From a virus, in the IMG/VR virus record IMGVR_UViG_3300017989_000199, positions 1 through 42,057 of that record: a stretch of 42,057 nucleotides of DNA, one strand, 5' to 3'. A program made the position numbers and the translations under genes. Within the stretch, counting starts at the first letter, position 1; every line of letters begins with the position of its first letter. Below the pieces are notes generated by a model. That model was given only the letters and a program-made list of their open reading frames with translations. It did not search any database and was not told the DNA's origin. Shown in pieces: positions 3,355 to 24,707 of the stretch.

Positions 3355-5289
3355 ATGGCGTGTAGTACCATTCGACAATCATTTAAGACCACACTGATGA
3401 AAAGATTTCTTGAAGAGATTCAAGAAGGAAACGGTGACAGTCTATTTCTAGGTATTTCTAAGACGAGCCCTTGGGATAATGAAACCAATCCACCAACACC
3501 TGTTGATAGTATCCAAGATGAGACAGAGTTTTGGAGAGAATGCATTGCTCTTAAGAAGGTTAAGACCGAAGATATCTCTTTGGTTCTACCCCGCTACGAT
3601 TGGTCAAACGGGACAATTTATGGTCGCTACGATGACGATACTGATCTTTTTGACGATAACGAACCAACACAATTCTTCGTATTGGTCGATGAGAAGAGAA
3701 TCTACAAGGTGATCGACAACAATGGTGGTGTGGCGAGCACAACGAAGCCACAGGAAACCGGTCCAAACATCTTTAAGACTTCAGACGGATACACATGGAA
3801 GTTTATCTACAAGTTGGCCGAGAGTGATGCTAAGTTCTTGACTCCAGCATACATGCCTGTATTTACAGTGAGTGCTATCACAACCAGTAATGATCCCCGG
3901 AAACAGCAATTTGATGTCCAGAATGCTTCTATAGAAGGATCCATAGACTTTATTCAGGTAGACGATGCTGGATCCTCATTCCCATTCACCATTGATGGTG
4001 TTTCGAGTGGAACTCATATCATTTCGAACACAACAGGAATATCACTTCAGTATAAACTGGCTGGAACCGAAGTATCTCTTGTATCTGGAGTATACCTAAA
4101 TTATGCTCTGAAACTAAATGATCCAGACAGTACAAACTACGGCCAAATACGGAACATCATCGCATATGATGGATCTTCTAAGGTAGCAACTCTCGATCAA
4201 GATTTCACCGATCCCTTAGATGTCATTGGATATGACTTCACAATTATCCCGTCAATTGGGATTAGTGGAGACGGAACCGGGGCGGCGGCAGAAGCAAAAA
4301 TGACCGCTGCTAATTTCATCGATACCATTGAGATGATAAGTCGCGGATCCCAATATACTTATGCTGAGGCATCCGCTTTTGGTGGATCGACAAGTGCCGC
4401 TGATGCCGTACTCGACCCGGTTATCTCCCCCAAGGGAGGACATGGATCCAATGCGATAGAAGAACTTGGTGCAGCATCAATTATGATATCTGTAAACCTC
4501 GATCAGACAGAAGATGGGCTGATTCAGGGAAATAGTGACTTCAGACAATTTGCTCTAGTCTCAAACCCAGAAATCGATGGTGTTGTGGTTGGATCAACTG
4601 ATGATGTTATTCACTCATACTTTGTAACATCTACATCCCCAATCACGACATTTGATGGTTTTGCAACAAATGGAAGAGCACTCATTGGACTTGGAAGTGG
4701 TGAAAATGGGCTCTTCTATGACTACACAGCAACTATAGGTAATGCCCTATCGGGTACAGTGAGGATATCCAACCCCACAAACAAATTTGTCTCTGGAGAT
4801 CGTCTAGTTATTACAGATGTTGATTTTACTGATGGAGCACTTTCCAATGTCTACATCGATAGGTTCGTAAGAGAAAATCTAGTTGTGAATAAGGATGTCT
4901 ATCGACAGACGACTAAGATTGATGTGTCCAAGATCTCTACAGATTTCACAGATACTACATTCGAGGAAGATCTTATGGTGGTTGGAAGTTCTTCCGGGGC
5001 GACTGCAATTATATCTTCATGGGATCGTGACTTTATTACTGGAGGGACATATTCAACTGAAGATGGTACTCTAGAGGTTGTCCGAGTTGTTGGGGAATTT
5101 AATCTGGATGATACATTGTCACAAATTTCAGAATCTGGGGTTGAAACTTTCAGTCTTGCTTCAATTACAACACTAAATACACCAGAGATAGACTATCATA
5201 GTGGTGATTTGATCTATCTGGAAAACATTCAAGTCCTAGAACGCGACGACTCCCAGAGAGAAGAAATCAAACTCATACTTTCGATATAA
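3355..5289 (+). CDS. gp8: Baseplate wedge protein gp8
   Basis: This 644-residue protein aligns at both ends with T4 gp8 (334 residues). The N-terminus has FLGISKTSPWDNE and PRYDWSNGT, matching the T4 FGRSEPWSSNE and PRRDWGD, then a TSDGYTWKFIYKL segment matching GDGYVWEYLFEI. The C-terminus, SGDLIYLENIQ ending in REEIKLILSI, matches SGEMIYMENR...EEINILFTF. The extra roughly 300 residues lie in the middle (about 190-560) and are beta-rich, so this is an enlarged gp8 that may decorate the baseplate. The start has a good ribosome site (GGTAGGAG, 7 bases before the ATG). gp8 dimers sit in each wedge between gp6/gp7 and gp10 in T4. Confidence 0.9.
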   Translation: MACSTIRQSFKTTLMKRFLEEIQEGNGDSLFLGISKTSPWDNETNPPTPVDSIQDETEFWRECIALKKVKTEDISLVLPRYDWSNGTIYGRYDDDTDLFDDNEPTQFFVLVDEKRIYKVIDNNGGVASTTKPQETGPNIFKTSDGYTWKFIYKLAESDAKFLTPAYMPVFTVSAITTSNDPRKQQFDVQNASIEGSIDFIQVDDAGSSFPFTIDGVSSGTHIISNTTGISLQYKLAGTEVSLVSGVYLNYALKLNDPDSTNYGQIRNIIAYDGSSKVATLDQDFTDPLDVIGYDFTIIPSIGISGDGTGAAAEAKMTAANFIDTIEMISRGSQYTYAEASAFGGSTSAADAVLDPVISPKGGHGSNAIEELGAASIMISVNLDQTEDGLIQGNSDFRQFALVSNPEIDGVVVGSTDDVIHSYFVTSTSPITTFDGFATNGRALIGLGSGENGLFYDYTATIGNALSGTVRISNPTNKFVSGDRLVITDVDFTDGALSNVYIDRFVRENLVVNKDVYRQTTKIDVSKISTDFTDTTFEEDLMVVGSSSGATAIISSWDRDFITGGTYSTEDGTLEVVRVVGEFNLDDTLSQISESGVETFSLASITTLNTPEIDYHSGDLIYLENIQVLERDDSQREEIKLILSI

Positions 5290-20941: not shown

Positions 20942-22831
20942 ATGACATTTACTAAAGATGGCTTTCAGGGAAACCCTTTGATTAAGGGTGCTGGAGCCCA
21001 ATTTCAATTTACAGAACAAATGGTCAAGGAATATCATCAGTGTATGATAGATCCCGTCTATTTTTGTAAGAAATATGTTAAGATTGTGCATATTGACCGT
21101 GGTTTAATTCCTTTTGATCTGTATTCATATCAGGAAAAGATGATTCAGACTGCATATGAGAACAGATTTATGATCTGTAAACTACCCCGGCAATGCGGCA
21201 AGAGTCTAAAACTAGATACGCCAATAGCCACACCAGATGGGTGGTCTACCATAGGTGATATACAAATTGGAGATATTATCTATGGTACTGAAGGACAAGA
21301 GATTGAAGTGCTTGGAAAAAGTCCCGTGTGGGATGACCATGATTGTTATAATGTAACATTTGACAATGGTGATACAATTGTAGCAGATGCAGAACATCTA
21401 TGGGAAGTATATTCTTCGCATTGGACTAAAGATGGTGGATGTAAAATCCTCGAAACGCAGCAACTTATCGAATATGTGAATAGGAAGAGAGGAAGTGGTA
21501 GGCCATATATCCAACTTCCAGATCCAGTTCAATATAGCGAGAAAGAATATACAATTCACCCATATATCCTTGGTATGTGGCTTGGGGATGGTAGATCTTC
21601 TGCTGGGCAGATAACATGTCATATAGATGATCTCCGTATCTATGAATCTAAGGTTCAATCCTTAAATGAATCTATCCTGAGCAAAAGTTTTGATAAAAGA
21701 AATGTAAATACATGGAATTTTACAATAAAAGATTTAACCACAAGGCTCAGAGAATTGGGAGTGCAGCATAATAAGCACATACCAATGTCTTATATGCGAG
21801 GATCTATAGAGCAGAGAATGGATCTCGTTCGTGGACTTATGGATACAGATGGTTGGTCCAGACCAAACAACAATGGCTATGAGTTTTACCAAAAATCAAA
21901 AGAGTTTTGTGAACAGTTCAGAGAACTTCTTGCATCCCTAGGAATTAAGAGCAGACTCCGCAAGAAGATTGTAAATGGAGACAAATATCATGTAGTGTCT
22001 TTTGCTACTGACAAAGAAGTATGTTTTCTCCCAAGAAAGAAAAAGATTGGGACCGGAGAGCAGAGACCAGAACAATCAAAACTGTATATCACCAACATCG
22101 AAAAGGTTGATAGTGTACCAGTTCAGTGTATAAGTGTTGATTCTAAAAACTCCCTCTTTCTTGCTGGTAAAGGATATATTCCAACACACAATACTGTATC
22201 GATCGGTGCTGGTGTGGTTCTTCATCATGCTCTCTTTCAGAAGGATAAAAAGGTTGCTATTCTCGCCAACAAGGGTGACATGGCAAAGAAGATCCTCGCA
22301 GATATCAAGAAGTCATTCCAGAACCTACCCAAATGGCTTCAACAGGGCGTGGTAGAATGGAATAAGACATCCGTTGAGTTTGAAAACGGGTCTAAGATCA
22401 TTGTTTCCGCCACTTCCTCTGACGCAGCCCGTGGTGACTCTTACTCACTCATTGTCCTAGACGAATTTGCGTTCATTGGTGAGAATCAAGCCGAAGAGTT
22501 CTTCAAGTCCGTGTATCCTACCATCTCATCCGGTACAGATAGTAAGATGGTTATTGTATCAACTCCAAATGGAATCAATCACTTTTATAGAATGTGGACG
22601 GAAGCGATTGAGAAAAGATCTGAATTTATTCCCATTGAAATCAATTGGTGGGATACTCCGGGCAGAGACGATGCTTGGAAAGAACAACAGATCAGAAATA
22701 CGAGCCAGAGAGACTTTGATCAAGAATTTGGATGTATTCATCCAGAAACAAAAATAACGGTAAGGCACAAAGAAACAGGAAATATAGAAACAATGCGTAT
22801 TATAGATTTTTATGATATTTGTTGTGTGTGA
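20942..22831 (+). CDS. gp17: Large terminase gp17, N-terminal part, with one intein and the N-half of a second
   Basis: The 629-residue polypeptide is terminase ATPase interrupted by protein-splicing elements. Residues 1-87 and 418-597 are terminase; residues 88-417 are a complete intein; residues 598-629 are the N-half of a split intein, after which the frame stops. Splicing of the first intein rebuilds PRQCGK-T, the Walker A motif. Walker B is SLIVLDE (502-508) and the coupling motif is STPNG (540-544). The polypeptide lacks the nuclease domain, which is encoded at 23495. The two extein parts here plus the downstream 291 residues give a spliced terminase of 558 residues, close to T4 gp17 (610). 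The ATPase pumps DNA into the prohead through the gp20 portal. Confidence 0.93.
   Translation: MTFTKDGFQGNPLIKGAGAQFQFTEQMVKEYHQCMIDPVYFCKKYVKIVHIDRGLIPFDLYSYQEKMIQTAYENRFMICKLPRQCGKSLKLDTPIATPDGWSTIGDIQIGDIIYGTEGQEIEVLGKSPVWDDHDCYNVTFDNGDTIVADAEHLWEVYSSHWTKDGGCKILETQQLIEYVNRKRGSGRPYIQLPDPVQYSEKEYTIHPYILGMWLGDGRSSAGQITCHIDDLRIYESKVQSLNESILSKSFDKRNVNTWNFTIKDLTTRLRELGVQHNKHIPMSYMRGSIEQRMDLVRGLMDTDGWSRPNNNGYEFYQKSKEFCEQFRELLASLGIKSRLRKKIVNGDKYHVVSFATDKEVCFLPRKKKIGTGEQRPEQSKLYITNIEKVDSVPVQCISVDSKNSLFLAGKGYIPTHNTVSIGAGVVLHHALFQKDKKVAILANKGDMAKKILADIKKSFQNLPKWLQQGVVEWNKTSVEFENGSKIIVSATSSDAARGDSYSLIVLDEFAFIGENQAEEFFKSVYPTISSGTDSKMVIVSTPNGINHFYRMWTEAIEKRSEFIPIEINWWDTPGRDDAWKEQQIRNTSQRDFDQEFGCIHPETKITVRHKETGNIETMRIIDFYDICCV
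21203..22192 (+). mobile_element. Contiguous LAGLIDADG intein in terminase Walker A
   Basis: The intein has 330 residues. Its first residue is Ser (codon 21203-21205) followed by LKLDTPIATPDGWSTIGDI, the standard N-terminal splicing block; block B is DTIVADAEHLW with the conserved His; the C-terminal block ends GYIPTHN, and the next extein residue is Thr, the required nucleophile. Two LAGLIDADG motifs lie at host-protein residues 209-217 (ILGMWLGDG) and 296-304 (VRGLMDTDG), each with the catalytic Asp, so the homing endonuclease looks intact. Insertion between Gly-Lys and Thr of the P-loop targets the least mutable part of the gene. Confidence 0.93.
22733..22828 (+). mobile_element. N-terminal half of a naturally split intein (AceL-TerL type)
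   Basis: After terminase residue 597 (QEFG) the sequence runs Cys-I-H-P-E-T-K-I-T-V and continues for 32 residues to a TGA stop at 22829. The Cys1 and the P-E-T-K-I-T-V strand fit intein block A. The piece is far too short for a normal N-intein (about 100 residues) but close to the 25-residue N-piece of the atypically split AceL-TerL intein, which is inserted in the same protein family. Its partner is encoded at 23495-23824. Confidence 0.85.
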
Positions 22832-22857
22832 ATTCTTTGGAGTATATACATACTAAT

Positions 22858-23502
22858 ATGAAAGAGTACATAATTTATAAATTAACTAGGGATTCTGATG
22901 GTCTAATTTACATTGGAACTACCAATTCAGACTGCTTTAGTACGCGAATGAGTGGGCATAGGATAAGTGATAGGTTTATAAATGATTCTTTCACCATACA
23001 AATACTTGTAAAATCAACCGATCCGAAAATTCATGATTTAGAAGAAAGTTATATTAAAAAATATGACTCATTCCATAATGGACTGAATGAAAGTATTGAT
23101 GGTAAGGGGAATCACCACGCACCAAATTTGACTACAGAGGGGTATAAATTTTCAAAAGAATCCAGAAAAAGAATGAGTGACGCAAAAAAGAATGGAAATT
23201 TTACTCCTTGGAATAAAGGGAAAAAGAACTGCTTCTCTGAAGAAACCATTAAAAAATTATCAGAAACCAGAAAAGGAAAGCAATGGGGACCAACAAAATT
23301 AACTGAAGATGAAGTTATATCTATAAGGGAAAGATACGAAAGTGGAGAATGTTTAGACGATCCGAATATAGGAAAAAGTTTAAAGAGTGGGTATATACAA
23401 ACGAGATTTAATATTTTTTGTAAAATTGTTTCTGAAGAATATGGATGCACTGAAAATAATATCAAAAGTATAATAAAAAGAAAGACATGGAACCATGTTT
23501 AA
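22858..23502 (+). CDS. GIY-YIG homing endonuclease between split-intein halves
   Basis: This free-standing 214-residue protein sits between the two intein halves. GIY-YIG motifs are YIIYKL (residues 4-9) and LIYIG (16-20), followed by Arg30 and His34. Two NUMOD3-type DNA-binding repeats follow: SKESRKRMSDAKK with G-N-F, and SEETIKKLSETRKGKQWGP. I chose the ATG at 22858 because the GIY motif then begins at residue 4; an in-frame TTG at 22819 would overlap the terminase fragment and adds no recognisable domain. TTGGAG lies about 15 bases upstream, rather far. The 3' end overlaps the C-half gene by 8 bases. It probably spreads the fractured locus by cutting uninterrupted terL. Confidence 0.88.
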   Translation: MKEYIIYKLTRDSDGLIYIGTTNSDCFSTRMSGHRISDRFINDSFTIQILVKSTDPKIHDLEESYIKKYDSFHNGLNESIDGKGNHHAPNLTTEGYKFSKESRKRMSDAKKNGNFTPWNKGKKNCFSEETIKKLSETRKGKQWGPTKLTEDEVISIRERYESGECLDDPNIGKSLKSGYIQTRFNIFCKIVSEEYGCTENNIKSIIKRKTWNHV

Positions 23503-23824
23503 AAGAAACTTAAAATATGAGATATTATCAGAAACCGGATGGAAAAATTTCTATGGTGTTCAGGAAACAAAGCACAAAAAATACTTGGACATAGAATTTT
23601 CCGATAGTTCTAACATAAAATGTTCTTTCGATCATCTTATTATGACTATAGATGGATGGAAAGAAGCAAGTAAATTAGATAAACTAGACTATATCTACAC
23701 AAAAAATAAAACACTGACAACAGTCAAAAAAATAATTGTTATAGATTCTCCGGTGACATTTTTTGATCCTCTGGGTGTAGAAGGTAACAATTCTTATTAT
23801 TCCAATAATTTGATTTCCCATAAC
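23495..23824 (+). mobile_element. C-terminal half of a naturally split intein (AceL-TerL type)
   Basis: There are 110 residues from MFKRNLKYEILSETGW to NNLISHN, followed by extein Cys. Block F is FFDPLGVEGNNSYYSNN and block G is LISHN|C, with the penultimate His and terminal Asn needed for splicing. From memory the AceL-TerL C-piece begins MFRTN, contains FNGIQKVE and ends GVVSHN at about 104 residues; the spacing and several positions agree (MFKRN, FYGVQETK, LISHN). No endonuclease domain remains inside the intein; the GIY-YIG gene upstream takes that place. Confidence 0.88.
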
Positions 23825-24700
23825 TGTGTATTTTATGGGTCTTCAAATACTCTTCTTTCAGGCCCATGTTTGGGTTCACTAGCACATGTGACTCCAATCC
23901 ACCAAAGTGGAGATGGTCTTGATGTATATGAGGATCCACAGGAAGATCATGAATATGTTATGACTGTGGATGTTGCGGCTGGTAATGAAATGGACTATTC
24001 CGCATTCTCCGTTATAGATATATCACAGTATCCATATAAAGTTGTTGCAAAATATAGGAACAATGAACTATCTACACTGGTATTTCCAGAAGTTATATAC
24101 CGTGTTGCAACTAAATATAATAAAGCGTGGGTTCTTATCGAACAGAACCAAGATGGCGGCCAAGTATCGAATGATCTTCATGATGATTTTGACTACGAGA
24201 ATATGATCTATGTTGTCCCGAGAGGGAGAAAGGGTCAGGTGGCTACATTGGAAGGATTTGGGAAGAAGGTTCAACTGGGGGTCAAGACATCCGCCGCAAC
24301 CAAGCGAATTGGATGTTCTATGCTCAAAACTCTGATGGAAGATCATAAACTCATCGTCGAGGATTTCGACACTGTGAGTGAGTTCTCCACTTTTGTTTCG
24401 AAGAGGAAATCTTTCGAAGCCGAAGTGGGTCGTCACGATGACTTGGTAATGACGCTCGTTTTGTTTGGGTGGCTCACATCCCAAGACATTTTTAATGAAT
24501 TACTTGATACAAATGTCAAGGAAGCGGCTCTGAGCGAACGCCGTCAGAAACAAGAAGAATTGATGACACCTATGGGATTCTTCGATGATGGAACCGCAGA
24601 TGACGACGGAGAGGATGACTATGTGGATGAAGAGGGTCAATTCTGGAAAGCAGTAAAACCAGAGGAAGACTTCAACGCTGGTGGGCTATTCCCGTTTTAA
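23495..24700 (+). CDS. gp17: Split-intein C-half fused to terminase gp17 C-terminal (nuclease) part
   Basis: The product has 401 residues. Residues 1-110 are the C-terminal intein half and residues 111-401 are the terminase remainder, beginning CVFYGSSNTLLSG, the conserved segment that follows QEF in T4-like terminases. Nuclease-domain acidic residues are visible as Asp159 (MTVDVAAG), Glu216 (VLIEQNQ) and Asp315/Asp316 (GRHDDLVMTL). It has its own ATG overlapping the endonuclease stop, so it is made as a separate polypeptide and must be joined to the 20942 product by protein trans-splicing to give functional terminase. The C-terminus (GGLFPF) is the usual phage terminase tail. The ribosome site is poor, so expression may depend on coupling. 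Confidence 0.92.
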   Translation: MFKRNLKYEILSETGWKNFYGVQETKHKKYLDIEFSDSSNIKCSFDHLIMTIDGWKEASKLDKLDYIYTKNKTLTTVKKIIVIDSPVTFFDPLGVEGNNSYYSNNLISHNCVFYGSSNTLLSGPCLGSLAHVTPIHQSGDGLDVYEDPQEDHEYVMTVDVAAGNEMDYSAFSVIDISQYPYKVVAKYRNNELSTLVFPEVIYRVATKYNKAWVLIEQNQDGGQVSNDLHDDFDYENMIYVVPRGRKGQVATLEGFGKKVQLGVKTSAATKRIGCSMLKTLMEDHKLIVEDFDTVSEFSTFVSKRKSFEAEVGRHDDLVMTLVLFGWLTSQDIFNELLDTNVKEAALSERRQKQEELMTPMGFFDDGTADDDGEDDYVDEEGQFWKAVKPEEDFNAGGLFPF

Positions 24701-24707
24701 CTAAATA
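24701..24707 (+). promoter_or_regulatory. Late-promoter-like box CTAAATA before the 24714 gene
   Basis: CTAAATA begins directly after the terminase stop codon and ends 6 bases before the ATG. T4 late transcription starts about 6 bases after the box, so the message would begin at or next to the ATG. No ribosome site is present. Confidence 0.45.

Follow-up and report, generated by a model that had tools for sequence, protein, structure and literature searches.

A fractured terminase gene with two inteins and a homing endonuclease gene preceded by a copy of the homing site

How a terminase might be made from a gene that is broken twice, and what might restrain the homing endonuclease encoded inside it, are the questions raised by positions 20942-24700 of the IMG/VR virus record IMGVR_UViG_3300017989_000199, one metagenome contig of 42,057 bases (the whole of which we call the window) whose late genes follow a T4-like order. 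There terL, the counterpart of T4 gene product 17 (gp17), is broken at two places: the Walker A motif holds a contiguous intein, and farther on a split intein is placed around an endonuclease gene, so that three open reading frames (ORFs; 20942-22831, 22858-23502 and 23495-24700) read terL across the locus. We hold with high confidence that this terL is a fractured gene bearing two inteins along with a homing endonuclease; the organisation itself, a fractured gene with an AceL-TerL-type split intein, is known, and the window is another member. The features are the following, with a slash marking each splice junction and nt standing for nucleotides:

20942..21202, plus strand: TerL extein 1, 87 residues, with the Walker A end ...RQCGK, where intein-less relatives read on as GKT
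21203..22192, plus strand: intein 1, 330 residues, contiguous, GK/S...THN/T, with Trp B:12, Cys F:4 and Thr G:5
about 21818-21979, plus strand: LAGLIDADG domain of intein 1, Pfam LAGLIDADG_3 at 4e-12
22193..22732, plus strand: TerL extein 2, 180 residues, remaining ATPase domain, C-terminal QEFG, Pfam Terminase_6N
22733..22828, plus strand: split intein N-fragment (IntN), 32 residues, Cys1, with the TGA stop at 22829-22831
22824..22841, plus strand: homing-site copy, as in uninterrupted terL, reading GTG TGTGAATTCTTTGGA, the only TGTGARTTYNTNGGA match in the window
22845..22852, plus strand: late-promoter-like box TATACATA, 5 nt upstream of the endonuclease ATG
22858..23502, plus strand: free-standing GIY-YIG/NUMOD3 homing endonuclease gene, 214 residues, Pfam NUMOD3 at 1e-5 and GIY-YIG at 0.009
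23495..23824, plus strand: split intein C-fragment (IntC), 110 residues, ending in ISHN/C, Pfam Intein_splicing at 6e-9
23825..24700, plus strand: TerL extein 3, 291 residues plus stop, nuclease domain, N-terminal CVFYGSS, Pfam Terminase_6C at 7e-11

The first ORF encodes TerL-N, which matches Terminase_6N at 3e-22 and has the LAGLIDADG_3 intein within it, and the third encodes IntC followed by the Terminase_6C domain, extein 3 being 50% identical to cyanophage TerL. Joined together, the exteins (87 + 180 + 291) would give a predicted terminase of 558 residues, the product claimed in an earlier note on this DNA; the coordinates of that note hold to the base, and the gene layout bears out its picture of a TerL made of three extein segments on two polypeptides. 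Because the order TerL-N, IntN, endonuclease, IntC, TerL-C is seen again in independent assemblies, the ORFs are not a product of chance. The stop of the endonuclease gene and the ATG of IntC overlap by 8 nt in the window, and an overlap of exactly 8 nt, of the ATGTTTAA type, is found alike in 23 cluster representatives, which suggests that the translation of the endonuclease and TerL-C is coupled.

Judged by its residues (Cys1, His, Asn, Cys+1), the split intein is a class-1 member of the AceL-TerL/Cat family. Among PDB sequences IntC comes closest (6.5e-9) to 6dsl, which is Cat, a consensus of AceL/GOS-TerL; the AlphaFold model of IntC (pLDDT 82) has the HINT fold, with inteins as the top Foldseek matches, gp41-1 and Cat first; the columns H47 (block B), D91 (block F), H109 and N110 are invariant among 14 diverse relatives; and both Cys1 and Cys+1 are present in the window. 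The split falls inside the first ~25-40 residues (32+110), the published lengths being 25+104 for AceL-TerL, 37+115 for GOS-TerL and 30+104 for Cat (PMC11766414); with these inteins the window shares the TerL host, the very short N-fragment, class 1 and Cys+1, and it differs from them in that a second, class-3 intein occupies the same gene. The very N-terminal split of AceL-TerL type that had been proposed for this locus is upheld by these lengths, matches and invariant residues. In relatives, homologues of IntN are stretches of 24-42 residues with Cys or Ser first, at the same terL site, and five collected loci (L155 and L161-L164) have the GOS-TerL lengths, 37/115, and Ser1. The window IntC is only 32-34% identical to those of L127 and L009, whose near-identical C-fragments presumably agree with that of AceL-TerL. 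In one branch (L178, L185, L188, L201, L210, L213, L218, L220, L224), carrying mostly HNH genes, the +1 residue is Thr instead of Cys (SHN/TEFLG).

Intein 1 is the contiguous P-loop intein that the earlier note had placed at GK/T, and at 330 residues it is confirmed there. By its signature it belongs to class 3: residue 1, at 21203, is Ser, block B has His-Leu-Trp, F:4 is Cys and the end is Thr-His-Asn, and among 19 full-length homologues the Trp-Cys-Thr set (WCT) is invariant while residue 1 varies between Ala, Ser and Gln. In the PDB its closest relative (6e-23) is 6bs8, a class-3 intein from DnaB of Mycobacterium smegmatis. With the class-3 inteins of Mycobacterium DnaB and of phage TerL Walker A sites it has in common the WCT signature, the Walker A site and the LAGLIDADG domain; it differs from them in its Ser at residue 1 and in the split intein within the same gene, so that TerL would require class-3 cis-splicing plus class-1 trans-splicing. 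This class-3 nature and the homing-site copy are the two points that go beyond the earlier note. Homologues of intein 1 are frequent: 746 phage records match, the top ones mostly within terminase genes, and among our collected loci 25 have a homologue, nearly all of them also bearing the split intein, with Synechococcus phage B23 (L043) as the exception that has intein 1 without it. Vibrio phage VP-1, in turn, combines a different contiguous P-loop intein with the fractured terL site. Since intein 1 and the split intein recur together and VP-1 likewise has two inteins, the double insertion is not unique.

The gene between the halves had been read as one for a GIY-YIG/NUMOD3 endonuclease, an identification which the NUMOD3 match supports and the predicted structure extends: the motif reads IIY...YIG, and the first match of the AlphaFold model is the catalytic domain of I-TevI (1mk0, 1ln0; Foldseek probability 1.00, best E 7e-3), the encoded catalytic fold being, on this model, that of GIY-YIG enzymes. 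In Vibrio phages VP-1 and 1.255.O (L030 3405-4202 and L037 1507-2586) the reading frame of IntN runs on into the GIY-YIG domain, giving a single polypeptide TerL-N-IntN-endonuclease.

From this layout we infer splicing, cleavage, homing and repression in the following way. Two precursors, each bearing intein parts, would be translated from terL. The class-3 LAGLIDADG intein in the P-loop of TerL-N would excise in cis; the 32-residue tail of TerL-N would pair with the 110-residue start of TerL-C; and the class-1 split intein, through Cys1, His, Asn and Cys+1, would then splice in trans to yield the 558-residue terminase. The GIY-YIG endonuclease would recognise uninterrupted terL at E/C-E-F-L-G and copy IntN, its own gene and IntC into it, and its DNA-binding tail would probably bind, in addition, the homing-site copy by the promoter-like box, thereby limiting the enzyme's own expression as I-TevI does.

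How widespread this arrangement is was estimated by several searches of differing reach. The endonuclease as query gave ten contigs with an endonuclease inside fractured terL; the search of cultured phages with a relative's endonuclease gave no match, and the endonuclease alignment was too diverse for scanning genomes. The IntC scan with a single sequence as query gave no matches, and the alignment-based IntC scan gave at least 364 confirmed relatives. We parsed 171 fractured terL loci in 78 clusters, plus one contiguous intein at the same site. Over 75 tree rows the occupants were GIY-YIG in 35, HNH in 15, an EDxHD-type gene in 8, none in 13 and others in 4. The earlier note had thus overestimated the rarity of the locus, GIY-YIG and HNH genes being the usual occupants and two-intein TerLs recurring, and the database search for split terL with GIY-YIG genes that it had suggested was successful in the 35 clusters just mentioned. 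Its statement that the known endonucleases of such loci are Vsr-like and not GIY-YIG stands for the Ser1 (GOS-TerL-like) branch of the split-intein family, in which the EDxHD/Vsr-like genes sit (~370 residues, motif IEFDGxYWH, Pfam DUF559/MTES_1575), and falls for the site at large, where GIY-YIG is common.

The GIY-YIG and HNH genes have one DNA-binding tail in common. Among AceL-TerL-like loci, L009 carries HNH and L127 GIY-YIG, their IntC being 94% and their endonuclease tails 81% identical, direct evidence for an exchange of the nuclease domain in which the DNA-binding tail was kept. Extein 3 is 95% identical between L199, without an endonuclease, and L206, with one, and therefore the loss of the endonuclease can yield bare split inteins. 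At least 26 changes between GIY-YIG, HNH, EDxHD and no endonuclease are required on the TerL tree; the Ser1 elements as one TerL clade are rejected (approximately unbiased, AU, test, p 9e-28), though they are grouped in the IntC tree. The endonucleases of L003 and L002 are the nearest to that of the window, yet the extein 3 of these loci is only about 23-25% identical to the window's, and a TerL clade uniting the three is likewise rejected (p 3e-5). These incongruent trees indicate mobility of the elements; transfer is supported but not its history, given the shortness of IntC and the weak resolution of its tree.

Fractured genes with a free-standing endonuclease gene between split-intein halves were reportedly described by Dassa et al. 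in 2009; according to citing papers their organisation is exactly that of the window, where the endonuclease is GIY-YIG/NUMOD3. The PolB gene of Pseudomonas phage MIJ3 also has a split intein around a free endonuclease gene, differing in the host gene and in that the endonuclease is HNH (PMC6892783). A second split site of terL, near Walker B, is found in Campylobacter phages CPX (L034 3489-4826, L242) and vB_Cj_QDYZ (L033, L241): the N-half lies on the minus strand, at about 2.7-3.2 kb, and closes with an intein N-fragment (IDE/CVAGDTKITVRNKKTGVIEDITMEELYNRIG); the C-half lies on the plus strand, opening with IntC at about 25.3 kb; and the halves, about 22 kb apart, are unlinked, so that trans-splicing is needed. 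Further loci at this second site are L036, L038, L039, L040 and L032; fractures there are seen in E. coli phage G2494, in Yersinia phage phiR1-RT, with a TnsA/endonuclease I-like gene between, and in Campylobacter CP21/IBB_35, with the HNH MobE, while Nitratidesulfovibrio phage SRB7757 has a contiguous intein at that position.

There remains the question of what lies ahead of the endonuclease gene. In the window the spacer from IntN to that gene reads GTG TGT GAA TTC TTT GGA gta TATACATA ctaat ATG, in which TGT GAA TTC TTT GGA spells C-E-F-F-G, to be compared with CEFLG, with which extein 3 begins in uninterrupted TerL; the copy is not in the frame of IntN and provides the IntN stop. TGTGARTTYNTNGGA is found once in the 42 kb window, the expectation being 0.02, and an IMG/VR-wide scan for TGTGARTTYNTNGGA followed by TATAAATA within 6 bases returned 111 stretches, all 111 in fractured terL and at the same place (about seven are contigs that supplied the pattern, the others being new); the TATACATA variant of the scan added five hits, all in fractured terL. 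When the comparison was restricted to loci that had not been located by the pattern, similarity of the spacer to the empty target of the same locus was seen in 19 of 27 GIY-YIG/HNH clusters versus 2 of 21 bare or EDxHD ones (Fisher p 2.7e-5), with the box after the copy in 17 versus 0; a pattern-based score gave 22/30 versus 5/24 (p 2.8e-4). The per-position identity of the copy is partly set by construction, the copies having been located with a pattern. Exceptions to the copy are L002, L203, L204 and four cultured-phage loci at this site (L030, L031, L035, L037). Ahead of its endonuclease gene L002, without the copy, has a strong hairpin, TGATAAAATGTGTTT...AAACACATTTTATCA (3880-3997), which may be an alternative form of control; an RNA hairpin governing the start of the endonuclease was dropped as a candidate, its folding being no better than that of shuffles (z -0.4). 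The +1 codon covaries with the copy, a Cys target going with TGT in 13/13 and a Thr target in 0/10, and as a proof this too was dropped, since it amounts to one independent event on the tree.

As to the box, TATAAATA or TATACATA stands at a like spacing, 0-3 nt past the copy, in 38 of 42 clusters, and it may act as a promoter. It lies mostly 4-31 nt upstream of the ATG, so near that its transcript would have almost no leader, which is a caveat. Another caveat for TATACATA as a late box is that the other late genes of this phage seem to be served by CTAAATA, probably its late promoter box, which likewise lies 5-6 nt before an ATG at 24701, 28730 and 29824. The CTAAATA motif occurs 11 times, always on the plus strand and in several instances 5-21 nt upstream of gene starts, its listed positions in the window being 3332, 24701, 28730, 29824, 32593 and 37504.

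A precedent exists in T4, where a site 15/20 identical to the homing site of I-TevI overlaps the late promoter and is bound by the enzyme equally tightly and cut about 100-fold less (PMC2988022). I-TevI resembles our case in its GIY-YIG catalytic fold and in the homing-site copy at a late-type promoter ahead of the endonuclease gene (PMC2988022), and differs in residing in a group I intron, versus a split intein here, and in that the leader from box to ATG is almost nil in the window. By analogy, we give an even chance to the copy being an I-TevI-type operator through which the endonuclease represses itself. The fuller proposal, that the element regulates itself by a built-in copy at a late promoter, read by the shared NUMOD3 tail, and that the circuit survived the change from GIY-YIG to HNH because that tail reads the copy, strikes us as equally balanced between true and false; if true, an I-TevI-type operator arose within a split-intein element.

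The main rival, which concerns the regulatory step only, is that the copy is no operator, being a neutral relic of the entry of the element into terL; we regard this as possible and decidedly more than marginal, though short of probable. In its favour, the codons for E-C-E-F-L-G of the extein recur in the copy in their original sequence, L232, with a degraded endonuclease, still retains the core, and the four cultured-phage loci named above and L002 are without it. On the other hand, the copy tracks the GIY-YIG and HNH genes and is joined by the box in most clusters, it persists through the exchange of GIY-YIG for HNH, it is nearer to the copies of other elements than to the adjoining extein, and, being out of frame with IntN at most loci, it is not maintained by protein selection.

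The operator reading set aside, two alternatives bear on the fractured gene as a whole. That the fracture inactivates TerL, leaving a dying pseudogene, is very improbable: the window extein 3 is indeed diverged (CVFYG, not CEFLG), but the exteins and both inteins are all open with their catalytic motifs kept, and the arrangement persists across many divergent phages, cultured ones included. Least credible of all is that a self-splicing RNA intron surrounds the endonuclease gene, the TerL parts being joined as RNA and the intein-like ends incidental. For this speaks the terL of Campylobacter phage IBB_35, which has been described, at a different site, as having an intron with an endonuclease, the authors calling the case one of intron plus intein (PMC3322345). 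Against it, the window has no Rfam group I or II intron match and no RNA family above threshold, the endonuclease ORF takes up 22858-23502 of the 663 nt from the IntN stop to the IntC start and so leaves no space for a ribozyme core, and IntC, whose catalytic residues are intact, clearly has the HINT fold.

To be weighed against the fractured gene with two inteins and a self-regulating endonuclease are four observations. The window is known from a single metagenome contig, its sole record; its endonuclease scores under the Pfam cut-off for GIY-YIG (0.009); of the similarity to intein blocks that the earlier note had looked for in both halves, IntC alone gave a profile match, IntN by itself being unmatched in the Pfam search, for which the fragment is too short; and the copy in the window agrees with its own diverged extein at 12/18 positions (p 0.18), suiting the family target instead.

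Split inteins are thought to originate when an endonuclease gene breaks an intein, and to our knowledge the stages of that origin are rarely visible side by side. At this one terL site all of them are seen, from genes fractured by GIY-YIG, HNH or EDxHD endonucleases through degraded endonuclease genes to the bare split intein, and the neighbouring terL site adds halves that lie on opposite strands. For protein ligation the family is, besides, a source of many new split inteins. It also presents, for a selfish gene within an essential packaging motor, a proposed regulatory circuit that can be put to the test, and in that circuit the copy with its promoter-like box, kept across a swap of the nuclease domain, is the part most deserving of experiment.

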